From: Rhodospirillaceae bacterium SYSU D60007
GTDB taxonomy: Bacteria; Pseudomonadota; Alphaproteobacteria; Reyranellales; Reyranellaceae
Length of the DNA: 64,000 nucleotides
Assembly: GCA_003574685.1 (NCBI GenBank)
Contig: QOCQ01000015.1
Coordinates: 1 to 64,000, forward strand
Direction of reading: 5' to 3'
Each line of letters begins with the position of its first letter. Position 1 is the first letter of the stretch. The notes beneath the pieces are model-generated. The model ran no database searches, was not told the origin of the DNA, and saw only the letters and a list, made by a program, of their open reading frames with translations. The position numbers and the translations under genes were made by a program. This document shows, in pieces, positions 11,245 through 35,107 of the stretch.

Positions 11245-12255
11245 ATGAAGCGCATTATCGCAGGGCTTGCGGCGCTGGCGGCGATGTCGATCGCAGCCGT
11301 GGCGCAGGCCCAGAACTATCCCTGGAAACCCGAACGGCCGGTGACCATCATCGTGCCCTGGGCCGCCGGTGGCTCGACCGATCAGATGGCGCGCATCGTC
11401 GCCGCCGAGCTGGAACAGGCGCTTGGCCAGAAATTCGTGGTCGTCAACCAGCCGGGCGCTTCGGGTTCCGTGGGCACCAAGGGCGCGCTTGAGGCCGAGA
11501 AGGATGGCTACACCTGGGCGGCCGGCGCCGCGTCGGACGTCGGCACGTACAAGGTGCTGGGTCTGCTCGACACGCAGCTCAAGGACTGGCACCTCTTCTT
11601 CGCAGTTGCCAACCTGACGGCGGTCGCCGCCAATCCCGGTGCACCGTTCAAGGATTTCGGGCAGTTCCTCGACGCCCTGAAGACGAAGGGCGACACCATC
11701 CCGGTGGCAACCGCCGGCTTGTCCTCGGCCGGCCACAACTTCATGGAGTCGGTGAAGGCCAACGCGCCGATCACCTACAAGCACGTCACCTATAATGGCG
11801 GCGCACCGGCCGTGACCGCCACGGTCGCGGGCGAAACCCAGGCGGTAGCCCAGTTGCTGGTCGAGATGTCCGAGCACATCAAGGCGAAGCGGCTGATTCC
11901 GCTGGCGGTGCTGGCGGAGAAGCCGGTGAAGCTGGAAGGCTATGGCGAATTGCAGCCGACGGCCAAGTGGCTGCCCAAGATGCCGGCACCGCTCAACTAT
12001 TTTGGCATCTGGGTACCGCGCGGCGTACCGGACGCGGTCGTGAAGACGATGGAAGCCGTGTGGAAGGACAAGATCGCCAAATCCGCCGCGCTGCAGAAAT
12101 ATGCCGACTCGCGCAGCGCCCTTGTCGCGCCGCTGTACGGCAAGGAGGCGGAGCAGGAGGCCTTCAAGATGGTCCGGCAGACGGCGTGGCTGTACTTCGA
12201 CGCCGGCAAGGCCAAGCTGTCCCCTGACACGCTCGGCATCGAACGCCTGCAGTAA
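11245..12255 (+). CDS. tctC: TctC/Bug family periplasmic solute-binding protein
   Basis: 336 residues. The first 22 form a Sec signal peptide ending AVAQAQ, followed by the Bug-family start (YPWKPERPVTIIVPWAAGGSTD), where the VPWAAGG loop binds carboxylates. It captures a small, probably carboxylated, substrate in the periplasm and hands it to TctAB. A strong ribosome binding site (GGGAGG) precedes the ATG. It is first in the operon tctC-tctB-tctA-selW-like and is divergent from the catabolic block. Ligand unknown. Confidence 0.92.
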   Translation: MKRIIAGLAALAAMSIAAVAQAQNYPWKPERPVTIIVPWAAGGSTDQMARIVAAELEQALGQKFVVVNQPGASGSVGTKGALEAEKDGYTWAAGAASDVGTYKVLGLLDTQLKDWHLFFAVANLTAVAANPGAPFKDFGQFLDALKTKGDTIPVATAGLSSAGHNFMESVKANAPITYKHVTYNGGAPAVTATVAGETQAVAQLLVEMSEHIKAKRLIPLAVLAEKPVKLEGYGELQPTAKWLPKMPAPLNYFGIWVPRGVPDAVVKTMEAVWKDKIAKSAALQKYADSRSALVAPLYGKEAEQEAFKMVRQTAWLYFDAGKAKLSPDTLGIERLQ

Positions 12256-12418: not shown

Positions 12419-12961
12419 ATGACGGAAACGCCGCCGTCTTCCGTGCTGCCGCATGAAGAGCCGCTGCCGCCACGCTACGATTTGTGGACGGCCGCGGTAT
12501 TTTTCTGCATCGGCGTCGCCATCGTCTGGCTGGCGTGGCAGATGCCGACATATGAGGAGCAGCAGGGGAAGATCTACACCGCACCCGGGCTGGTGCCGGC
12601 ACTCCATGGAATCGTCATCGCTGGACTCAGTCTCTGGCTGGGACTGCGCGCCATTACGCGCGGTGCGTTGCGTGCCGGTCGCGGCCAGGAACGGCCACCC
12701 CGCGAGGGCTACAGTGACACGCGACTGTACCTTGCCGCCGCGCTCTGCCTGATCTTTGCCGTGGGGTTGGTAGGACGCCTGCCGTTCTGGCTGGCGGCGG
12801 CGATCTTCGTCTTCTCGTTCACAACCCTGTTCGAATGGCAGCGAGGCGCGCCCGCTCGCGAACGCGTACGCCGGCTGGCGATCGCTGCCGCGCTGGGCAT
12901 CGGCACCGGCGTCGTGGTGACGCTGGTGTTCGAGCGGGGCTTCCTCGTACGCCTGCCGTAG
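12419..12961 (+). CDS. tctB: TctB family small membrane subunit of a tripartite tricarboxylate transporter
   Basis: 180 residues with about four hydrophobic segments (around 26-42, 65-80, 105-135 in two parts, 150-170), the usual TctB topology. It partners TctA in the inner membrane. It follows tctC after the inverted repeat and precedes tctA by 11 bases. TctB sequences are poorly conserved, so the call depends on context and topology as much as on sequence. Confidence 0.88.
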   Translation: MTETPPSSVLPHEEPLPPRYDLWTAAVFFCIGVAIVWLAWQMPTYEEQQGKIYTAPGLVPALHGIVIAGLSLWLGLRAITRGALRAGRGQERPPREGYSDTRLYLAAALCLIFAVGLVGRLPFWLAAAIFVFSFTTLFEWQRGAPARERVRRLAIAAALGIGTGVVVTLVFERGFLVRLP

Positions 12962-12972
12962 GGTCGCTGTGC

Positions 12973-14487
12973 ATGCTCGATAGTCTTGGCCAGTTCGGCA
13001 GCGCCTTCGCAGGCTTTCTGTCTTTCTCGGTACTGCTGACGGTCTTGTGGGCCACGTTCCTGGGCATCGTGATCGGCGCGCTGCCCGGGCTGACCGCGAC
13101 GATGGGCGTGGCTTTGATGACCACGCTCACCTTCACCATGCCGCATCGCGAGGCGGTCCTGGTGCTGATCTGCATCTATGTCGGGGCGATCTATGGTGGC
13201 AGCCGCAGCGCCATCCTGCTGAACATTCCCGGCACCCCCGCATCAGCCTGCTCGACGCTCGACGGCTTTCCGCTGGCGCGCCAGGGGCTGGCGGGCCGCG
13301 CCATGGGCATCTCCACCAGCGGCTCGTGGCTGGGCACCCTGTTCGGGACCCTGTGCGTGGCGACGCTCACGCCGTTTTTGGCTGAGCTGGCACTGACGTT
13401 TCACAGCGCCGAGTTCTTCTGGATCGCGGTGTTCGGCATCGTGATCGCCGGCACGCTGTCGGGCGGCGACCCGCTGAAGGGCTATCTCGCGGGATTTTTC
13501 GGTCTGTGGGTCGCCACCATCGGCCAGGAGCCGCACTACAACTACCAGCGCTTCGCTTTCGGCTCGACCGAAGTGGCGGGCGGCATCGGGCTGCTGCCGG
13601 CCCTGGTCGGCGCCTTCGGTGTCGCCGAGGTGCTGCAGGCCATGCGTGCGCCGGCGGCTACGGCCGTCAGCAGCACCATCGATTCGGTCCTGCCGCGCAT
13701 CCGCGATGTGATGAAGTACTGGAAAACGATCCTGCGTTCCGGGGCGATCGGCACGTTCATCGGCATCCTGCCCGGCCTCGGCGAGGATACCGCCGCGTGG
13801 TCCTCCTATGCCGCCGCGCGGCGCGCCAGCAAGGAAAAGGAGAAGTACGGCCGCGGCTCGATCGAAGGGCTGATGTCGGCCGAGACCGGCGAGAGTGCTT
13901 GCGTGCCGGGCGCCATCATCCCCGTTCTGACGCTGGCCGTGCCGGGCTCGGCGCCGGCCGCGGCGCTGATGGCGGCGATGCTGATCCACGACATCAACCC
14001 CGGCCCGATGCTGATGATCCAGACGCCGGAGTTCTTCTACCAGATCGTGGCCATGCTGGTGATCGCCGACATGAGCAAGCTGCTCTTCGGGCTGACGCTG
14101 GTGCGGCCGCTGCTGTGGATCCTGCTGGTGCCGCGCGAGCGGCTGATGCCGGTCGTGTTCGTGCTGTGCACCGTGGGTGCCTTTGCCATCACGTCCCGCA
14201 TTTTTGATATCTACGTCATGCTGTTCTTCGGGCTGGTCGGCTTTGTGCTGCGCGAGCTGAAATTTCCCATGGCGCCCATGATCCTCGGGCTGGTGCTTGG
14301 CGAGCTGCTGGAAAGCAACCTGACGCGCGCGCTGGTGCTGTCGGATGGCAGCATCGCGCCGTTCTTCACGCGGCCGCTCAGCGGCACGCTGGCGGCCATC
14401 ACCATTTTTACGGTTGTCTGGTCGATCCCCTCGGCGCAGGCTGCCGTCCGGCGATTCGTAGGCACGCTGCTCAGGAGAAGTGCATGA
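12973..14487 (+). CDS. tctA: TctA family large permease subunit of a tripartite tricarboxylate transporter
   Basis: 504 residues, the normal length, with about a dozen membrane segments and the two conserved TctA signatures, the N-terminal GALPGLTATMG and the internal GILPGLGEDTAAW. I chose the ATG at 12973 (MLDSLGQFGSAF); the frame is open further upstream but would overlap tctB. It forms the channel for ion-driven import of the TctC ligand. The last codons overlap the start of the selenoprotein gene as ATGA, so the two are probably translationally coupled. Confidence 0.93.
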   Translation: MLDSLGQFGSAFAGFLSFSVLLTVLWATFLGIVIGALPGLTATMGVALMTTLTFTMPHREAVLVLICIYVGAIYGGSRSAILLNIPGTPASACSTLDGFPLARQGLAGRAMGISTSGSWLGTLFGTLCVATLTPFLAELALTFHSAEFFWIAVFGIVIAGTLSGGDPLKGYLAGFFGLWVATIGQEPHYNYQRFAFGSTEVAGGIGLLPALVGAFGVAEVLQAMRAPAATAVSSTIDSVLPRIRDVMKYWKTILRSGAIGTFIGILPGLGEDTAAWSSYAAARRASKEKEKYGRGSIEGLMSAETGESACVPGAIIPVLTLAVPGSAPAAALMAAMLIHDINPGPMLMIQTPEFFYQIVAMLVIADMSKLLFGLTLVRPLLWILLVPRERLMPVVFVLCTVGAFAITSRIFDIYVMLFFGLVGFVLRELKFPMAPMILGLVLGELLESNLTRALVLSDGSIAPFFTRPLSGTLAAITIFTVVWSIPSAQAAVRRFVGTLLRRSA

Positions 14488-14702
14488 AGATCCGCATCGA
14501 TTACTGCAGTGGTTGAGGCTACAAGCCCCAGGCCCTCCGTGTGAAGGCGAAACTCGAACAGCTTGGTCATGGCGACGTCGACATCGCGCCGGGAAAGTCC
14601 GGCCAGTTCGACATCACGGTCGATGGCACGCTGGCTTACTCCCGCTACCAGACCGGCCGGTTTCCGACCGACGACGAGATCGACGCGCTGGTGGATGCCT
14701 GA
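14484..14702 (+). CDS. SelW-like (Rdx family) selenoprotein with in-frame UGA/Sec11
   Basis: Read through the TGA at 14514-14516, this frame gives a 72-residue protein starting MKIRIDYCSGUGYKPQA. The CxxU motif (Cys8-Ser-Gly-Sec11) followed by GYKP is the signature of selenoprotein W, and the rest (GQFDITVDGTLAYSR, then a helix) fits the small thioredoxin-like Rdx fold. The start overlaps the tctA stop by ATGA; the natural stop is TGA at 14700-14702. The window carries tRNA-Sec, selA, selB and selD, so decoding is plausible. Rdx proteins are thought to act in thiol redox chemistry, but their exact role is not settled. A normal gene call would end after 10 codons and miss it. Why it belongs to a Tct operon is unknown. 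Confidence 0.88.
14532..14548 (+). promoter_or_regulatory. Candidate bacterial SECIS hairpin
   Basis: GCCCTCCGTGTGAAGGC, 15 bases after the Sec UGA, can fold into a stem of five base pairs with one C-A mismatch and the loop CGUGU. The size and distance resemble the E. coli fdhF hairpin that SelB binds, and the loop holds a GU pair as expected. Bacterial SECIS elements are variable, so this is a reasoned guess. Confidence 0.45.
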
Positions 14703-14734: not shown

Positions 14735-16009
14735 TCAGCCCCAGATGTCGGCCGTGATGTTGGTGTACCAGTTGTAGGTGTAGTCGGCCTCGAGCTTGCG
14801 CTCGTTGAGGGCCGTCGGTGTCCGGACGCTGACGCCGCCAGCATCGGGTGTGGGGGTGATGCCCTTTTCGTTCACTTGGTAGACGTCGGCGACAGATATG
14901 CCGTAGTCCGGCGTCACCAGGCTGTAGCAGACATTGAACAGCGCCGGGGGCGCGGGCGAGCGGCCGGCCAGGCTGTCGACAATGGCAGCCGCCACGACCT
15001 TGCCCTGCGTGTTGGCGGCCGATCCTGATTTCGGCATGGCACCCGCGATGGCCGCGTCGCCCACGACGTAAACGCCAGGCACACGGGTCGAGGCGAACGT
15101 GGCGGGATTGACCGGGCACCAGCCATTCTCGGCTGCAACACCGGCTGCGTGAGCTATGGCGCCGGCCCGCTGCGGCGGGATGACGTTGACCACCGCGCCC
15201 TTCTGGACGCCAAAGGCCGTGGTGACCGCCATCGCGCCGGCATCGACGCTCTCGACCTTGCCGCCGTCCCTGCCGGCGACCCAGGTGATCATGCCGGGAA
15301 ACTCGCTTTCCCAGGCCGCCTGGAACAGGCCCTGTTTCGAGAACGAGTCCTTGGCGTCGAATACAAGGATCTTCGATTTCGGCTTGTTGTTCCGGAAATA
15401 CCAGGCCACGACGCTGACCCGCTCGTAGGGACCGGGCGGACAGCGGAAGGGATTGGCCGGTGGACAGACAATGAAGGTACCGCCATCCGGCATGGCCTCA
15501 AGCTGGCGGCGCAGCAGCAGCGTCTGTGCCCCTGGCTTCCAGGCGTGCGGCATCATCTCCGCCGCCGCCTCGCTGTAGCCGGGCAGGCCCGTGAAGTTCA
15601 GGTCTATGCCGGGCGATAGGACCAGCCGGTCCCAGGAGAGCCTGCTCCCGTCCCCGAGCGTCACCGTACGCGCCGCGGGATCAACGCCGGCCGCTTCGCC
15701 CTTCACGACATTCACGCCGGCCTTGCGCAGACCGTCGAAGCCGTGGGTGATCTGTTCCATGTGGCGAAAGCCGGCGATGACGCAGTTCGAGAACGGGCAG
15801 GTGATGAACCGCTCCTCGCGTTCGACCACCGTGACGTCCAGCGCAGCGTTAGCCCGCCTGAGGTAGCGCGCTGTCGTCGCGCCGCCGAAGCCGGCCCCGA
15901 TCACGACCACCTTCCCGGCAGCGCCTTGCGCCAGTGCCGGCCGGCCGATCGTACCCAGAGCGGCCGCGGCGCCGGCCATCCCGAGCACGAAACGGCGGGT
16001 AGCGGCCAT
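14735..16009 (-). CDS. Flavocytochrome c sulfide dehydrogenase-like FAD subunit (FccB/SoxF type)
   Basis: 424 residues. A twin-arginine-like leader (MAATRRFVLGMAGAAAALG, one R pair) is followed by the FAD-binding Rossmann loop VVIGAGFGGATTA (about 35-47). Further blocks are FITCPFSNCVIAG, VYVVGDAAI near residue 316, and a C-terminal FCSD flavin-binding domain with NVCYSLV. Relatives pair with a periplasmic cytochrome c to oxidise sulfide or polysulfide. The cytochrome gene lies 9 bases upstream in the same operon. Its true substrate is not shown by the sequence. Confidence 0.88.
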   Translation of the reverse strand: MAATRRFVLGMAGAAAALGTIGRPALAQGAAGKVVVIGAGFGGATTARYLRRANAALDVTVVEREERFITCPFSNCVIAGFRHMEQITHGFDGLRKAGVNVVKGEAAGVDPAARTVTLGDGSRLSWDRLVLSPGIDLNFTGLPGYSEAAAEMMPHAWKPGAQTLLLRRQLEAMPDGGTFIVCPPANPFRCPPGPYERVSVVAWYFRNNKPKSKILVFDAKDSFSKQGLFQAAWESEFPGMITWVAGRDGGKVESVDAGAMAVTTAFGVQKGAVVNVIPPQRAGAIAHAAGVAAENGWCPVNPATFASTRVPGVYVVGDAAIAGAMPKSGSAANTQGKVVAAAIVDSLAGRSPAPPALFNVCYSLVTPDYGISVADVYQVNEKGITPTPDAGGVSVRTPTALNERKLEADYTYNWYTNITADIWG

Positions 16010-16018
16010 TGTCTTCCC

Positions 16019-16318
16019 CTATTTCAGCGTGGCGATGAATTCGGCAATGGCGCCGATCTGCTCCTCGCTGTAGCTGCGGGCGATACGGTTCATGACCGTG
16101 CCGGGCCGGCGGCCGGTCCTGAACTCGGTCATCTGGCGCACGATGTGCTCGCGCGGCAGACCGGCCAGCGATGCCACCGGGCCGCCGCTCCTCCCGTCGG
16201 GACCGTGGCAGACATAGCAGGTCTGGGCCATCGCCTGCCCGGAAGGTCCAGGGCTCTGCGCTGCCGCACTGACAGGCAGAAGCAGTGCGGCAAGCAGAAC
16301 GGGGATCCGTATGCGCAT
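16019..16318 (-). CDS. Small periplasmic cytochrome c (FccA-like)
   Basis: 99 residues: a signal peptide (about 1-21, ending SAAAQ) and one class I heme site, CYVCH at residues 34-38, with a likely Met axial ligand in TVMNRIA. I chose the ATG at 16318 (MRIRIPVLL); the longer frame upstream runs into the DUF4242 gene. It is the probable electron acceptor of the FccB-like subunit. One heme and about 80 mature residues suit a monoheme FccA/SoxE type. Confidence 0.85.
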   Translation of the reverse strand: MRIRIPVLLAALLLPVSAAAQSPGPSGQAMAQTCYVCHGPDGRSGGPVASLAGLPREHIVRQMTEFRTGRRPGTVMNRIARSYSEEQIGAIAEFIATLK

Positions 16319-16334
16319 GCGGGCCGGCGGACGT

Positions 16335-16622
16335 TCAGCCCTCTGGCCGCTCCGTCGTGGGATCGATGGTACGGCGAACCTCGGTAATCTTCGTCGCGGG
16401 GAATCCACTGACCTCGGCGTGCTTGCGGATGATGTCCTCATCCTTCGCCAGATAGACGCAGAAGGTCTTGTCGGCCGCGACGTAGCTTTCGAGCCACTGG
16501 ATATCCGGTCCCAGGCTGCGCAGAACCTCATTTGACTTCGCGGCCGCGCCGCGGAGCTGTTCGCGCTCGAATGTCCCGACCTTCGGAATGTCGCGCTCGA
16601 TGATGAATTTGCGCAGGCTCAT
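16335..16622 (-). CDS. DUF4242 family small protein
   Basis: 95 residues. MSLRKFIIERDIPKVG and the YVAADKTFCVYLAKDEDIIRKHAEVSGFP block match DUF4242, ferredoxin-like-fold proteins sometimes described as nickel binding. It lies between the cytochrome and the lipoate-ligase-like gene, all on one strand with gaps under 30 bases, so it is probably part of the same redox operon. Function unknown. Confidence 0.75.
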   Translation of the reverse strand: MSLRKFIIERDIPKVGTFEREQLRGAAAKSNEVLRSLGPDIQWLESYVAADKTFCVYLAKDEDIIRKHAEVSGFPATKITEVRRTIDPTTERPEG

Positions 16623-24085: not shown

Positions 24086-24181
24086 TGGCGGAAGAGAGTG
24101 GGAGTCGAACCCACGAAGGACCGTCCAACGGCCCTTACTGGATTTGAAGTCCAGCCGCCCCACCGGGAACGTATCCCTTCC
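24086..24181 (-). tRNA. selC: tRNA-Sec (anticodon UCA)
   Basis: The 96-nt minus-strand sequence starts GGAAGGGAT and ends CTCTTCCGCCA, giving an 8-bp acceptor stem, which is longer than in ordinary tRNAs and typical of tRNA-Sec. The anticodon arm CTGGA-CTTCAAA-TCCAG carries anticodon TCA, which reads UGA. A long variable arm (GGGCCGTTGGACGGTCC region) and the T arm GTGGG-TTCGACT-CCCAC are present. CCA is encoded. It is 14 bases downstream of selB on the same strand, so it may be co-transcribed. Confidence 0.97.
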
Positions 24182-24195
24182 ATCCTGCACCCAGA

Positions 24196-26145
24196 CTACG
24201 ATGGTCCAGCGCCTTTGACGAATCGCTCGTAGCGGTCGCGGTTCACCACGCGGACCTGGTCGCGCAGGGTGGTGACGCCGCCGCGGTCGAAGAACTCCAG
24301 GATCTGGATTGCCACCTTGCGGCCGCCGCCGATGCGGTCGCGGAACTCAGCCGCCTTGAACCTGCCGTCGGGCGCCTGGGCCGCCAGGTCGCCCGCGATC
24401 CGCGCCAGCTCGACGACCGGTCCGCGCAGGAAGAAGTGGTCCTGCGCCACCTGCCAGACCACGCCCATCTTGCTCAGCCGGCGCATCAGCTCGCGCACCC
24501 TGTTTTCCGGCACGCCGCAATGATCCGCAAAGTCGCGAACCCGCGGCGGGCCGAAGCGCTGCTGCTCCAGGACCGGCCGGATCTTCGCCCACAGCTTCTC
24601 GTCCTCGGCTGACAGCCGCACCGCATGGCCCGGCAGACGCAGCCACGGCCCGTCCGCCTCGATCACCTTTGCTGCCAGCAATGCGGCGACGATAGCGGCA
24701 AAGGGCGCGGCGGCAATCTTCATGGGCAGCGCCACGCGCAGCTTTTCGGGCTCCAGCCCGGCGCTGTTGGGCTGCTTCTGATGGTGCGTGCCCAGCGTCG
24801 CCGTAACCGCGCGCTCGATCTCCGCCAGCCGTGCAAGCGGTAGCGCGAAAGCACTCCCGCCGGCGCCATCCGCGGCCGGCAACGCCTGCAGGCCGGCCGC
24901 GGACACGGCGGCATCGCGCGCTTCGGGCCGCAGATTACGCGCCAGCGCAAAGACGGCGAGATCCACGACGTGCGGCGGCAGTGACGCGAGCGCCGCCAGC
25001 GCCGCGGCCGGCGCGGACTCCTCCAGCACCTGCAACAGCGCCAGCCTCTCCGGCCGCCGGCGAAAGCGCGTCGGCGGCCAGGGATCGAGCACCACACCGC
25101 CAGCGATGGTGCGCCGCGCCGACTGGTCGCGCAGGATCAGGCGGTCGCCATGCAGGGCACCGATGGGACGATCCAGCACGAGCTGCGCCAGCGCGCCCTG
25201 GCCAGGGGCGAGGCTCTCGGCGTCGAGCAGCACCACGCGGGCCATCACGTGCGCGGCACCCAGATGCAGGTGCACCGGCGTCCAGTGGCGCATCGGCCGC
25301 GATTCGTCGGGCAATAGCCGCAGGCGCACGTCCAGCCGGTCTGTCGGCCGGCGCAGCGTGGGCGCCACCAGCCAGTCGCCGCGATGAATGGCATCCTTGC
25401 TGATCTGCGGGCCGGCGATATTGAGCGCGCAGCGCTGGCCGGCGCGGCCAACCTTCGCGGGCGCATTCTGCGCATGGATGCCGCGCACGCGCGCCGCAGC
25501 GCCCGTCGAGAGCAGCACAAGCTGGTCGTCCTGCCGCGTCTCGCCGCTGAACACCGTGCCGGTCACCACGGTGCCGGCGCCGGCCACCGTGAAGCAGCGA
25601 TCGACCGGCAAGCGGAACCAGCCGTCGGCCGCACGATCGCCGGTGGCTTCGGCCTCCAGCTCCAGCCGTACCTTCAGGTCGGCAATGCCGAGACCGGTCT
25701 GGGCCGAGGCCGGCATGACGTCGGCGTCGGCCAAAGTCGTACCCGCCAACAGCAACCGGATATCCGTCTCCAGCCGCACGAGGCGATCGGCGTCTGCGAG
25801 GTCTGCCTTCGTGATCGCAACGGCGCCGCGGCGTACGCCCAGCAGATCAAGGATCGCCAAATGCTCGCGCGTCTGGGGCATGGGCCCGTCATCGGCCGCC
25901 ACCACCAGCAGTGCGAAATCGATGCCGCCGACACCCGCCAGCATGTTGTGGATGAAACGCTCGTGGCCGGGCACATCGACAAAGCCCAGCGTGCGCCCGT
26001 TGTCGAGCGGCAGGTAGGCAAACCCCAGGTCGATGGTGATGCCGCGCGCCTTCTCTTCCGGCAGGCGGTCGGTATCGACGCCGGTCAGCGCCCGCACCAG
26101 CGTCGTCTTGCCGTGATCGATATGGCCTGCCGTGCCGACGATCAT
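24196..26145 (-). CDS. selB: Selenocysteine-specific elongation factor SelB
   Basis: 649 residues, within the normal range. It has the GTPase G1 loop [13 protein letters not shown] (4-16), DVPGHERFI near 57-65 and the NxxD-like TKAD block at about 111-114, then EF-Tu-like barrel domains and C-terminal winged helices (about 440-649) that bind the SECIS hairpin. It delivers Sec-tRNA to in-frame UGA codons. It overlaps selA by ATGA and is followed by tRNA-Sec, so one transcription unit supplies most of the Sec pathway. Confidence 0.97.
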
Positions 26146-27533
26146 GACGAGGTGGTTCCCGGCGCAAGCTGTGCAAGCTGGTCGAGAAAAGCGGCCTCGT
26201 CGTCGAGGCAGCGAAGATCAAACTTCAATCGACCGTCCTCGATACGCCCGACTACAGGCACAGGCAGGGAACGGAACGCTGTCGCCATGTGCTCGACGGC
26301 AGCACCGCTTTTCGCGCCCACGGGACGAATCGACAGGCAGTGACTGGGCAGCAGGTCCACCGGCAACGCGCCGCTGCCGATCTGGCTGCGGCATGGCTCG
26401 ACCGACACCTCCGCCCTGCCCGCCAGCGCCGCTGCAAGCGCCGGCAGGAGGCGGTTTGCCGCCGCCTCGATCTCGGCGACGGGCCGAGTCAGCAGCCGCA
26501 ACGTGGGCAGGCGCTGCGCCAGCCGGTCGGGATCGGCGTAGAGGCGCAACGTGGCTTCCAGCGCGGCCAGCCTGCCCTTGTCGAGGCGCAAGGCGCGTTT
26601 CAGCGGATTGCGGTTGAGCTGCTGCACCAGATCCTTTCGGCCGACCACGATGCCACATTGCGGACCGCCCAGCAGCTTGTCGCCACTGAAGCTCACCAGA
26701 TCCGCGCCGGCTTGCAACGCCTCGCGCGGCGTGGGCTCGTGCGGCAGGCCCCAGTTTTCCAGATCAACGAGTTGGCCGCTGCCCAGATCATTGACGAAGG
26801 GCAGGCCGTGCCGATGCGCGAGCGCGGCCAGCTCACCTTCGGGCACGCTGCTGGTGAAGCCGACCACGGCGTAGTTCGAGGGATGCACCTTCATGAGCAT
26901 CGCGGTTGCTGGCCCGATGGCGGCCTCGAAGTCCCGCAGGTGCGTGCGGTTGGTAGTGCCGACCTCCACCAACCGGCAGCCGGCGCGCGCCATGATGTCG
27001 GGCATGCGGAAGGCACCGCCGATCTCGATCAGCTCGCCGCGCGATACCGGCACTTCCTTGCCCAGCGCAAGCGTGTTCAGCACCAGCATCACCGCGGCGG
27101 CGTTGTTGTTGACCACGGTCGCATCGTCGGCACCGGTCAGCCGGCACAGCCAGTCGCGCACGTGATCGTCGCGCTCGCCGCGTTTGCCATCGGTCACGTC
27201 GAATTCGAGATTCGAAGGCCGGGCCAGTACGCCGGCCATCGCCATCACGGCCGTATCGGCCAGCACCGCCCGGCCGAGATTGGTATGCAGCACCGTGCCC
27301 GTGAGGTTGAACACCGGCCGTTGCGTGGGGGCCATGCCGGTGGCGAGCTTGCCTGCGGCCAGCGCCGCCACTCCGGCCTCATCCGCAACGGCACGCGTGG
27401 CCCGCAGCTCCGCCAGCGCCGCGCGCACCGCCTCGGTTGCCGGCTGCCGGCCGTAGCGCTCGACCAGGGCCACAGCGGCGGCGCTTTTCAGAACACGGTC
27501 GACAGCGGGAAGGCGGGAGAGATCGACAGTCAC
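26142..27533 (-). CDS. selA: L-seryl-tRNA(Sec) selenium transferase SelA
   Basis: 463 residues from a GTG at 27533 ([15 protein letters not shown]), the same length as the E. coli enzyme; a longer frame extends to 27608. The PLP lysine is Lys286 in [10 protein letters not shown], and the [14 protein letters not shown] block is conserved. It converts Ser-tRNA(Sec) to Sec-tRNA(Sec) using selenophosphate from SelD. It is placed between fdhE and selB, the usual order when the Sec genes travel with formate dehydrogenase. Confidence 0.96.
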
Positions 27534-27651
27534 GGAATGCTCGCACGCGAGACGGCGGGACTCGCCCGCAGGAAGGCCGGTACCTAGCAAATAACCAGCG
27601 GCCGGCAAAGCGTGAGGTATCGCCGGCGGCGCCTCCCCCAGGAAGGCTGCC

Positions 27652-29318: not shown

Positions 29319-29819
29319 TCATGCCGGCCTGTCGCGGCGCATCCTTTCGGCGGCCGCTTCATCCTCGGCCTGGACCTCGTTGGGGCCGTGCGTCACGTAG
29401 TGCAGGAAGCCGGCCAGCGCAGCCAGCCCGACGCCGGCCAGCAGGATCGGCTTGGTGATGCCCTTCCATATCTCGACCAGCGGGCTGATCTTCGGATCCT
29501 TGGGCAAGCCGGCGTAGATCTCCGGCTTGTCGACGTGCTTGAGCACGTACATCACGTGCGTACCGCCGACGCCGGCCGGATCGTAGAGCCCGGCGTTCTT
29601 GTAGCCACGCTCCTTCAGGTCGGCGATCCGCTTGTCGGCCCACGCCACCATGTCGGGCTTGGTGCCGAAGGAGATCGCCTGCGTCGGGCACGCCTTGGCG
29701 CAGGCCGGCGCCTGCCCGACGGCAACGCGATCCGAGCACAGCGTGCACTTGTAGGCCTTCTGGGAGCCAGGGCCAAAGGGACGGGCGTCCGCACAGCCGG
29801 TCCAGATGTTGGCGTTGCA
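29319..29819 (-). pseudogene. fdhB: 5'-truncated formate dehydrogenase beta subunit (iron-sulfur) gene
   Basis: About 165 C-terminal residues of a protein normally near 300. The block KAYKCTLCSDRVAVGQAPAC, then CPTQAISFGTK, GLYDPAGVGGTHVMYVL and a C-terminal membrane helix are clear FdhB. Upstream of KAYKC the frame stays open to a stop at 29903 but the sequence no longer matches: the CxxCxxCxxxCP ferredoxin cluster has collapsed to C-x7-C, and no start codon with a ribosome binding site is seen. The N-terminal half and the catalytic subunit gene that should precede it are absent; crcB lies there instead. I take it as a deletion remnant. Confidence 0.85.
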
Positions 29820-29919: not shown

Positions 29920-30312
29920 TTACCTGTTGATCCGCGTGCCGACGATATGGCCGATCCAGGCGGCAGCCAGCGACGCTCCGATCACGGCAACGATGTATGC
30001 CGTCGCCGTCGCAAGGCTTCCTTCCATCAGCAGCGTCAACGTCTGAAGGCTCAGGGCCGAGAAGGTCGTGAAGCCACCGCAGAGCCCACCCATGACGAAC
30101 TGCCGGCCGGTGATACCTACGGCGAACCGCCCGCCGGGACCACAGAGCGTGGCGAAGAGCATGATGGCGAACGATCCGAGGATGTTCACGAATGCCGTCG
30201 CATCAACGCCGCTGAACAGGGCGCCGCACAGGAACCGCAGCAGCGAGCCGATGGCAGCGCCGCAACCCACGGCAAGACACAGCCGCAGCGCAGTCGGACG
30301 GCTTTCGTTCAT
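29920..30312 (-). CDS. crcB: Fluoride ion channel CrcB/Fluc, second subunit
   Basis: 130 residues from ATG 30312 with four membrane helices and Fluc signatures (GAAIGSLLRF, VNILGSF, GGLCGGFTTFSALSLQT). Two crcB genes in tandem usually form a heterodimeric fluoride exporter. The start overlaps the stop of the upstream copy as TGATG. It stands directly against the fdhB remnant, so it marks the breakpoint. Confidence 0.93.
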   Translation of the reverse strand: MNESRPTALRLCLAVGCGAAIGSLLRFLCGALFSGVDATAFVNILGSFAIMLFATLCGPGGRFAVGITGRQFVMGGLCGGFTTFSALSLQTLTLLMEGSLATATAYIVAVIGASLAAAWIGHIVGTRINR

Positions 30313-30710
30313 CACATCCGCCCGAACAGCCGCGTGGCCGACCAATAGCCTGCCGCGACCGCACACACGCTCAGGCCCGCCGACAGCACGATGTTAAGGA
30401 GCGCGTGCCGGTATTGTCCGCTCAACGCCAGCTCAAGGGTCTGCAGGCTGAAGGACGAGACCGTTGTGTAACCACCCAGGACTCCCACCATCAGCACATC
30501 GCGAAACAGCGGGTCAGAGAACGCGCCGCCGGCGATACTGGCCGCGGCAGCGAGCACGCCGGCGGCAAGAGCGCCCGTGACGTTGACCGCAAGCGTGCCC
30601 CACGGGAACAGGCCAGGCGCGATCCGTCCGGCCGCCGCCGTGACGCAGAAGCGGAGCATGCCGCCGGCAAAGCCGCCCATCGTCACAAGCAAAGATGCCA
30701 GCAGGGTCAT
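30312..30710 (-). CDS. crcB: Fluoride ion channel CrcB/Fluc, first subunit
   Basis: 132 residues from ATG 30710 (MTLLASLLVTMGGFAGGMLRF). It has the channel motifs GGMLRF, LAVNVTGAL and GVLGGYTTVSSFSLQT, where the Phe and Ser/Thr residues line the fluoride path. It forms a pair with the downstream copy. No fluoride riboswitch is recognisable in the 92 bases between it and the divergent selD fusion. Confidence 0.93.
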   Translation of the reverse strand: MTLLASLLVTMGGFAGGMLRFCVTAAAGRIAPGLFPWGTLAVNVTGALAAGVLAAAASIAGGAFSDPLFRDVLMVGVLGGYTTVSSFSLQTLELALSGQYRHALLNIVLSAGLSVCAVAAGYWSATRLFGRM

Positions 30711-30802
30711 TGCCGCGAAGTTCCCGGACCTGCGAGGGAATTGCAACGACGGCGCGCGGACAGGCCTCGCATACCGGCTGCCTGTTCGCGTAGGGTGCGG
30801 CC

Positions 30803-33028
30803 GTGTCCCGCTCCCCGCGTGTTGCCGATACATCCGCACCGGTCCTCGACCTCGTTCTGGTCGGGGGCGGGCATGCGCATGTCGAGGTGCTGCGGCAGGC
30901 GGCCATGACCCGGACCCGCGGCGTGCGGCTGACCGTGATCGCCCGCGAGCTGGAGACGCCGTATTCAGGCATGCTGCCGGGCCTGCTTGCCGGGCACTAC
31001 ACGCAGGGCGACGCGCATATCGATCTGCGCCCCTTGTGCCAGGCGGCTGGCGCACGGCTCTTTCACGCCGAGGCGATCGGGCTTGATCTGTCGGCACAGC
31101 GCGTGCTCTGCGACCGCCGTCCGCCCGTGGCGTTCGAGCGGCTGTCGCTCGACATCGGCTCGCGGCCACAGACGGCGGACGTACCGGGCGCCGATCGCTA
31201 CGCACTGCCGATCAAGCCGGTGTCGGCCTTCCGCCGCGGCTGGGACGAAATCGAGGCGCGGCTGCACGCGAGCGACCGGCCGCTGCACGTCACCGTGGTG
31301 GGAGGCGGCGCCGGCGGTGTGGAACTGACGCTCGCCCTTCAGCACAGGTTGGCGAAAGCCGGGCTGGATACCAGGGCGGCATTCACCCTGGTCAGCAAGA
31401 CGGACAGCATTCTGCCGACCCATCCCCCGCGCGTGCGCAATGCCTTTGCCGGCGTGCTCGACGCGCGCGGTGTGACCATCGTGACGGGCCGCGCCGTCGT
31501 CGAGGTGCGTCCCGATTCCGTCATGCTGGAGGATGGCGCCACGCTGGCCAGCGACGCGACGCTGTGGGTGGTCGAGGCCGGGGCGCCGGACTGGCTGCGC
31601 GAGTCGGGACTGGCGACAGACGAACGCGGCTTCATGAAGGTGAACCGCTATCTCCAGTCCGTCTCCCACGCCGACGTGTTCGGTGCCGGGGACGTGATCG
31701 CCTTTCCCGAGCCCCTCGCCAAGGCCGGCGTCTTTGCCGTGCGCGAAGGGCCGGTGCTGGCGCGCAATCTGCTGGGACCGCCGGACAAGCCGCTCAAGGC
31801 CTACAGGCCGCAGCGCCGGTTCCTGACGCTGATTTCGACCGGCAACAAGCACGCCGTCGGTGCGCGGGGAGCGCTCTCGGTACGAGGCGACTGGGTGTGG
31901 CGATGGAAGAACCGTATCGACCGGCGCTGGATGCGCATGTATCAGGCGCTGCGCCCCGGCGCGATGGCGATGGACAAGAGCGGGCCTGTCGCAGCGATGG
32001 AAGCGATGCGCTGTGCCGGCTGCGGCGCCAAGATCGGCGCCGACGTGCTGCGCGGCGCACTCGAGTCGCTCGACATCCCCGCGCGTGAGGATGTGCTGCT
32101 GGGCGTGCGCGAGGCGGAGGATGCCTCGGCCATCGCCGTGCCAGCCGGTCTGGCGCTGGTGCAGAGCGTCGATTTCTTCCGTGCACTGATCGACGATCCG
32201 TGGCTGTTCGGCCGCATCGCTACCCTGCACTGCCTCTCCGACCTGTTCGCCACGGGTGCGGCGCCGCACAGCGCACTGATGACCGCATTGCTGCCGCACG
32301 CGCCGCCGCACTTGCAGCGTCACGACCTCCAGGCGCTGCTCGAAGGCGTGCTGAAGGAGCTGGCGCATGCCGGCGCCACCCTGATTGGCGGGCACACTGG
32401 CGAGGGCATGGAGCTGAGCCTCGGGCTCACAGTGAATGGCCTGGCTGACCCCGCGAACCTGCTGCGCAAGGGCGCTTTGCGGGCGGGCGATGCGCTGATC
32501 CTCACCAAACCGCTGGGCACGGGCGTGCTGTTCGCCGCCGACATGCGAGGCAAGGCCCGCGCGCCCTGGATCGAGGCGGCGCTGGTCTCGATGCTGCGCA
32601 GCAACGGCCCGCCCGCCGAAGCCGCGCGCAAGGCTGGCGCCGTAGCCTGCACCGATATCACCGGTTTTGGCCTTGCAGGACATTTGCTGGAAATGCTGCG
32701 TGCATCGGGAGTCGATGCGGAAATTGCCGTCGACGCCGTTCCGGCGCTGCCGGGCGCCCGCCACCTGCTGGGCCGTGGCATCGAGAGCACCATGGCGCCC
32801 GCCAACCGCGCCAGCGGCGGGTCTCTGATTCTGCCGGCGAGCACCGGGGGCCCGGCGGGTCTGCTGTTCGATCCCCAGACATCGGGCGGGCTTCTCATTG
32901 GCATCGCGGCGGACAAGGCGCCGGCGTTGATCGATATACTGCACCGTGAGGGTGCGCCGGAGGCCGCCATCATCGGCCGCGTGCTGCCCCGTGCCGGGGG
33001 CGCACCGCTTCTGGCCCTGACGACATGA
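30803..33028 (+). CDS. selD: SelD selenide-water dikinase fused to an N-terminal FAD/NAD(P) oxidoreductase
   Basis: 741 residues from a GTG at 30803. Residues about 15-380 are a type II NADH-dehydrogenase-like flavoprotein (LVLVGGGHAHVEVL, VTVVGGGAGGVELTLAL, VFGAGDVIAF). Residues about 400-741 are SelD with Cys407 and Lys410 in AGCGAKIGAD, a nucleotide-binding IGGHTGEGMELSLG, and PQTSGGLL. SelD makes selenophosphate from selenide and ATP. The fused flavoprotein may reduce selenium to selenide (inference). Such fusions are known in bacteria. The active-site residue is Cys, not Sec. mobB follows 13 bases later. Confidence 0.95.
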   Translation: MSRSPRVADTSAPVLDLVLVGGGHAHVEVLRQAAMTRTRGVRLTVIARELETPYSGMLPGLLAGHYTQGDAHIDLRPLCQAAGARLFHAEAIGLDLSAQRVLCDRRPPVAFERLSLDIGSRPQTADVPGADRYALPIKPVSAFRRGWDEIEARLHASDRPLHVTVVGGGAGGVELTLALQHRLAKAGLDTRAAFTLVSKTDSILPTHPPRVRNAFAGVLDARGVTIVTGRAVVEVRPDSVMLEDGATLASDATLWVVEAGAPDWLRESGLATDERGFMKVNRYLQSVSHADVFGAGDVIAFPEPLAKAGVFAVREGPVLARNLLGPPDKPLKAYRPQRRFLTLISTGNKHAVGARGALSVRGDWVWRWKNRIDRRWMRMYQALRPGAMAMDKSGPVAAMEAMRCAGCGAKIGADVLRGALESLDIPAREDVLLGVREAEDASAIAVPAGLALVQSVDFFRALIDDPWLFGRIATLHCLSDLFATGAAPHSALMTALLPHAPPHLQRHDLQALLEGVLKELAHAGATLIGGHTGEGMELSLGLTVNGLADPANLLRKGALRAGDALILTKPLGTGVLFAADMRGKARAPWIEAALVSMLRSNGPPAEAARKAGAVACTDITGFGLAGHLLEMLRASGVDAEIAVDAVPALPGARHLLGRGIESTMAPANRASGGSLILPASTGGPAGLLFDPQTSGGLLIGIAADKAPALIDILHREGAPEAAIIGRVLPRAGGAPLLALTT

Positions 33029-34922: not shown

Positions 34923-34953
34923 GATGTCGCGTGAAGATCCTTCACGCGACATC
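34923..34953 (+). other. Perfect 14-bp hairpin just upstream of the FMN riboswitch
   Basis: GATGTCGCGTGAAG and CTTCACGCGACATC form a perfect 14-bp stem with the 3-base loop ATC. It abuts the P1 stem of the riboswitch at 34953. There is no U-run, so it is not a classical terminator of the upstream gene. It could cap the leader RNA, end the upstream transcript with Rho, or mark a transcription start region. Confidence 0.7.
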
Positions 34954-35100
34954 GTTCTCAGGGCGGGGTGGAAGTCCCCACCGGCGGTATGTGCGCTGCG
35001 GCGCACGAGCCCGCGAGCGCCCGCCGGCCCAGGCCGGCGGGGTCAGCAGATTCGGTGCGAAGCCGAAGCCGACGGTTACAGTCCGGATGGAAGAGAACGG
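34953..35100 (+). ncRNA. FMN riboswitch (RFN element)
   Basis: The conserved RFN parts are present in order: CGTTCTCAGGGCGGGGTG, GAAGTCCCCACCGGCGGT, an expanded variable arm (about 34990-35035), GTCAGCAGATTCGGTGCGA, GCCGACGGTTACAGTCCGGA and GAGAACG closing P1. It binds flavin mononucleotide and turns off the downstream riboflavin gene ribH2 when FMN is plentiful. Confidence 0.97.
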
Positions 35101-35107
35101 GAGGAGT

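Follow-up and report, generated by a model that had tools for sequence, protein, structure and literature searches.

A predicted SelW-like selenoprotein gene behind the tctCBA genes of a Reyranellaceae genome

The DNA analysed here (the window) is the whole stretch of 64,000 nucleotides from Rhodospirillaceae bacterium SYSU D60007, contig QOCQ01000015.1. At the end of its tricarboxylate transporter genes a short reading frame begins inside the last codons of tctA and is interrupted by one in-frame TGA. This locus raises two questions: is the TGA read as selenocysteine (Sec), and does the position of the gene point to a role in tricarboxylate transport? The window genome belongs to the Reyranellaceae, and its congeners include Vineibacter terrae and 'Reyranella sp. 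CPCC 100927'.

The gene and its family

The features at the locus are as follows:

11245..12255, plus strand: tctC, periplasmic receptor (Pfam TctC)
12419..12961, plus strand: tctB (Pfam TctB)
12973..14487, plus strand: tctA, ATG at 12973 (Pfam TctA, E 6.9e-136)
14473..14477, plus strand: Shine-Dalgarno sequence AGGAG, within the end of tctA and 6 nt ahead of the ATG of the next gene
14484..14702, plus strand: predicted SelW-like (Rdx) selenoprotein gene, 72 codons plus stop
14514..14516, plus strand: in-frame TGA, predicted to be read as selenocysteine, U11 of C8-S-G-U11

Based on the sequence and its translation, the frame 14484-14702 with an internal TGA, as given in a preliminary description of this DNA, was exact. 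The ATG occupies 14484-14486 and the stop TGA 14700-14702, the internal TGA being codon 11. The sharing of ATGA with tctA was also borne out, with the tctA stop codon TGA at 14485-14487. Readthrough gives a product of 72 residues, MKIRIDYCSGUGYKPQALRVKAKLEQLGHGDVDIAPGKSGQFDITVDGTLAYSRYQTGRFPTDDEIDALVDA. Convergent with this gene, the minus strand (14735-16622) carries genes for a flavocytochrome c sulfide dehydrogenase flavoprotein, a cytochrome c and an SCO4226-like protein, and the first two of these were also found near Rdx in two congeners.

The product belongs to the SelW/Rdx family. The Pfam Rdx profile (PF10262) matched residues 2-71 with 61.1 bits (cut-off 22.6) and E 1.2e-16; since this match covers both sides of the TGA, the frame is not a chance one. 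It was the sole PF10262 match in the whole genome. The score for NCBIfam TIGR02174, 49.5 bits, likewise exceeded its cut-off (34.2). The NCBIfam model NF041051 (SelTWH_Campy, SelT/SelW/SelH family (seleno)protein) aligned over its full length (residues 3-70, E 2.5e-20), and the score of 72.5 bits lies below its curated cut-off of 88, so that the protein falls outside that equivalog.

An AlphaFold model computed with an input of 25 sequences had a pLDDT of 94.3 and placed the CxxU motif between a strand (3-8) and a helix (14-26). In a fold search with this model, all of the 23 best PDB matches (E <= 0.001) were SelW-family chains, led by 2fa8, 2ojl, 2p0g and 2obk, with TM values of about 0.84-0.88. 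Mouse SelW (2npb) and Atu0228 (2fa8), which comes from Agrobacterium, another alphaproteobacterial lineage, gave sequence matches of E 3e-7 and 3e-6 in that order and TM values of 0.66 and 0.88, respectively. Identity to the window protein across these two fold alignments was about 32-34%. Thus, the SelW/Rdx-type body proposed earlier is upheld by both profile searches and by the predicted fold.

Reading of codon 11

A profile search of 75 Reyranellaceae genomes recovered the Rdx gene in 54, each time with a single internal TGA; no Cys form was found among these 54. The TGA stood at codon 11 in all 49 distinct nucleotide versions of the homologous gene. Downstream of it the protein is strongly conserved, with 31 invariant columns among 25 aligned sequences, and single changes were more often synonymous (10973) than non-synonymous (5977).

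To judge the reading across the class, alphaproteobacterial genomes outside the Reyranellaceae were sampled, 25 with a TGA-containing Rdx gene and 18 with a non-TGA form, one of which has TAA within the match. tRNA-Sec was present in 22/25 of the former and in 2/18 of the latter, Cys-Rdx genomes (Fisher p 7e-7), as well as in all 51 good-quality Reyranellaceae genomes. Cys homologues, named in the preliminary description as possible support, exist in other Alphaproteobacteria, mostly without tRNA-Sec, and no such form was found in the Reyranellaceae genomes searched. TGA-containing SelW-like genes span many alphaproteobacterial families.

The window also holds the genes for Sec synthesis and insertion:

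24086..24181, minus strand: selC, tRNA-Sec (ARAGORN; Rfam RF01852, 75.6 bits)
24196..26145, minus strand: selB (TIGR00475, 450 bits, cut-off 242)
26142..27608, minus strand: selA (TIGR00474, 566.8 bits, cut-off 268)
30803..33028, plus strand: selD fused to an N-terminal pyridine-nucleotide oxidoreductase domain (TIGR00476, 284 bits, cut-off 125; TIGR03169, 444 bits, cut-off 310); CxxC form, start codon uncertain

All four, whose presence in the window had been noted before, are intact, and the protein genes score far above the NCBIfam cut-offs. In some other Alphaproteobacteria the tRNA-Sec gene is reported to be nested in selB; here it lies about 14 nt past the selB stop codon (24086-24196, minus strand). 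An FMN riboswitch was found at 34950-35102 on the plus strand (RF00050, 102.7 bits). With its N-terminal oxidoreductase domain, the SelD protein resembles the reported Ndh-SelD fusions (PMC2398784).

A candidate signal for Sec insertion follows the TGA:

14532..14548, plus strand: SECIS-like hairpin GCCCTC-CGTGT-GAAGGC, loop at 14538-14542, 21 nt from UGA to loop

In the family this hairpin, CCCUC-CGUGU-GAGGG, is formed by codons 17-21 (GCC CTC CGT GTG AGG), with G and then U among the first loop positions. Over 44 distinct genes the summed synonymous entropy of these codons was 0.36 bits, against 7.9 +/- 0.3 bits (minimum 6.9) in 500 shuffles of codons for the same residues, and no other five-codon stretch of the gene was as low. 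A published bSECIS model requires a loop of 3-9 nt, a stem of 4-16 bp, G in the first two loop positions, a spacing of 16-37 nt and MFE <= -7.5 (PMC13188914); the hairpin agrees with it in loop size, position of G and spacing. A clean stem of 5-6 bp was seen in 20 of 24 sequences. The window species and its three congeners have Lys21 (AAG) in place of Arg21 (AGG), which creates a C.A mismatch flanked by 3 + 2 pairs and partly offset by an outer G-C pair; because of this mismatch the stem is weaker in this genus than in the rest of the Reyranellaceae. The folding energy of the 47-nt segment is -9.6, but with z 0.37 it is no better than that of shuffled sequences. RNAalifold, run on the whole gene, found no covarying pairs and predicted partly different pairing there; covariation is absent because the hairpin is nearly invariant. 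Given these unremarkable energies and the missing covariation, the case for the hairpin rests on synonymous constraint, that is, on a conserved RNA sequence, rather than on stability or pairing as such.

Could the TGA be a true stop, with codons 1-10 and the downstream frame representing remnants or a separate, reinitiated ORF? The upstream frame is short, and GTG at codon 20 is a conceivable start, but the protein-level constraint on the downstream frame described above (invariant columns and excess of synonymous changes) would be hard to reconcile with this, and the TGA sits at the catalytic CxxC/U position in every homologue and follows tRNA-Sec across the class. We consider such a stop extremely improbable. 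Decoding of UGA as Cys or Trp, or its non-specific readthrough, is conceivable for any single gene judged from sequence alone; intact SelA, SelB, SelC and SelD, the SECIS-like hairpin and the co-occurrence with tRNA-Sec argue against it and leave it a negligible likelihood. Codon 11 is thus almost certainly a Sec codon, as judged from comparative sequence data, and the Sec reading proposed earlier is supported by the TGA in every Reyranellaceae homologue found, by conservation of the hairpin and by tRNA-Sec co-occurrence. An annotation treating this TGA as a stop would miss the gene, while the comparative evidence confirms the predicted selenoprotein.

Genomic neighbourhood and proposed explanation

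The preliminary description had raised the idea of a selenoprotein within a Tct system. We compared 46 Rdx loci with flanking DNA, some of them shortened by contig ends, using tblastn with named proteins; a plain listing of neighbouring ORFs was unreliable owing to long shadow ORFs. tctA adjoins Rdx in 4/46 loci, all from one genus (the Vineibacter clade) and including 4/4 genomes of that genus. The spacing between tctCBA and Rdx varies: the two overlap by 4 nt in the window and are separated by about 80, 300 and 310 nt in its congeners. In 40/46 loci the neighbour of Rdx is an aldo/keto reductase gene; in most cases the two genes diverge, their start codons being separated by about 47 nt. Since tctA adjoins Rdx in a single genus and the aldo/keto reductase does so in 40/46 loci, the Rdx gene predates its placement behind tct. 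A tctCBA linkage conserved across lineages was therefore not found, and the comparison with relatives, which turned up homologues outside any tct context, counts against a Tct link.

A dedicated function in Tct transport, such as control of tricarboxylate uptake or of the TctC receptor through redox chemistry, would fit the place of the gene just behind tctCBA in each of the four genomes of the genus, and the ATGA overlap in the window species. However, the other 42 loci, which include all other genera of the family, have no tct context, and gaps of about 80-300 nt separate the genes in the three congeners. Moreover, the protein has no signal peptide-like start and by its sequence is not periplasmic, and the titles and abstracts covered by our literature search for Tct and selenoproteins described no such link. 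The Tct idea thus has position in its favour, and we regard such a role as quite unlikely. A more definite version, in which Vineibacter recruited the selenoprotein to the tct operon so that the redox state of CxxU controls carboxylate uptake or use, seems to us very improbable; if true, this would be the first case of a tripartite tricarboxylate transporter with a selenium-dependent element. It is possible, though rather doubtful, that the functional partner is instead the divergent aldo/keto reductase found beside Rdx in most Reyranellaceae. The 40/46 loci, most with the short distance between starts, speak for this partnership; on the other hand, the reductase is no longer a neighbour in Vineibacter and was not found in the flanking DNA covered at two further loci, and divergent pairs may adjoin without sharing a pathway. 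This gene, lying upstream of Rdx, is a possible functional partner, and such a partnership is compatible with the explanation that we prefer.

Based on the above results, we suggest with high confidence that the locus carries a real SelW-like (Rdx) selenoprotein gene whose UGA codon 11 is read as Sec, and that its tct placement is genus-specific, the gene being a relocated redox gene rather than a transporter component. SelA would make Sec-tRNA, and SelB with tRNA-Sec, directed by the hairpin 21 nt downstream, would insert Sec at codon 11. The predicted product is a 72-residue protein of thioredoxin-like fold whose first strand ends in a C-x-x-U redox pair. By analogy with its family it may have a redox function, most likely as a small selenol/thiol oxidoreductase in the cytosol. 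The gene is the last of a putative tctCBA operon, with which it is presumably co-transcribed, and in the window species its translation is likely coupled to that of tctA via the ATGA overlap. It would thus be a relocated housekeeping redox gene riding on the tct transcript.

Other Sec clients and comparison with known systems

The usual alphaproteobacterial partner of selABC is the Sec-containing formate dehydrogenase FdhA. It is absent from the window genome, where no TIGR01553 match exceeded 125 bits. Comparison with V. terrae, which keeps an intact formate dehydrogenase operon order, revealed that the operon has lost fdoG, which encodes the Sec subunit, together with the first half of fdoH, the loss lying within the contig (28643-29765, minus strand). 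FdoH residues 158-297 remain at about 29346-29765, followed by intact fdoI, fdhE, selA, selB and selC. At the edge of the deletion lie genes for two adjacent small membrane proteins, CrcB-like by eye (29920-30366 and 30312-31205, both on the minus strand).

By hand count, the 51 good-quality Reyranellaceae genomes comprise 27 with Rdx and FdhA, 12 with Rdx only, 9 with FdhA only and 3 with neither, so that the two genes are gained or lost independently. The last three (G030, G036 and G062) possess selA, selB and tRNA-Sec, so retention of the machinery alone does not point to Rdx. Some Reyranellaceae must therefore have a further selenoprotein or more than one, or else the machinery persists after its clients are gone; in these three genomes the selenoprotein may be one beyond FdhA and Rdx or may lie in an assembly gap.

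A probable second selenoprotein of the window genome, to judge by its motif and hairpin, is encoded by an AhpD-like (CMD, PF02627) gene (L199, 1219-1767, plus strand). Its TGA (1540-1542; C21:55039-55041) replaces the second Cys of the CxxC motif (NGCPFU, i.e., CPFU), and a hairpin GCATCA-CGTG-TGATGC follows 18 nt after the TGA, with a CGUG loop common to the Rdx hairpin. A blind scan for conserved TGA-interrupted frames near the sel genes was abandoned after returning hundreds of shadow-frame matches in this G+C-rich DNA. In view of this AhpD-like gene and of the three genomes with sel genes and neither Rdx nor FdhA, we rejected Rdx as the sole explanation of the retained sel genes. Rdx, the AhpD-like candidate and the deleted formate dehydrogenase taken together suggest that in this lineage FdhA is not the sole reason to keep the Sec machinery, small redox proteins being another.

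Bacterial SelW-like selenoproteins have been known since 2005. Reports of them come from the Sargasso Sea selenoproteome (PMC1088965) and from sequenced bacteria (PMC1794560), and they form the most abundant marine selenoprotein family, with 427 sequences (PMC2398784); the CxxU form of pfam10262 is also listed among selenoproteins (PMC9312934). Among the sequenced Alpha- and Betaproteobacteria known at that time to decode Sec, FdhA was described as the sole selenoprotein (PMC1794560), a view that the present data extend. In the literature searched we found no paper on a Reyranellaceae selenoprotein, and the terms selenocysteine and Reyranella returned only unrelated work. The window gene has the family (PF10262), the fold, the CxxU motif, the UGA position and a SECIS-like element immediately downstream in common with the known bacterial SelW-like selenoproteins, but differs from them in its place behind tctA, in one alphaproteobacterial genus.
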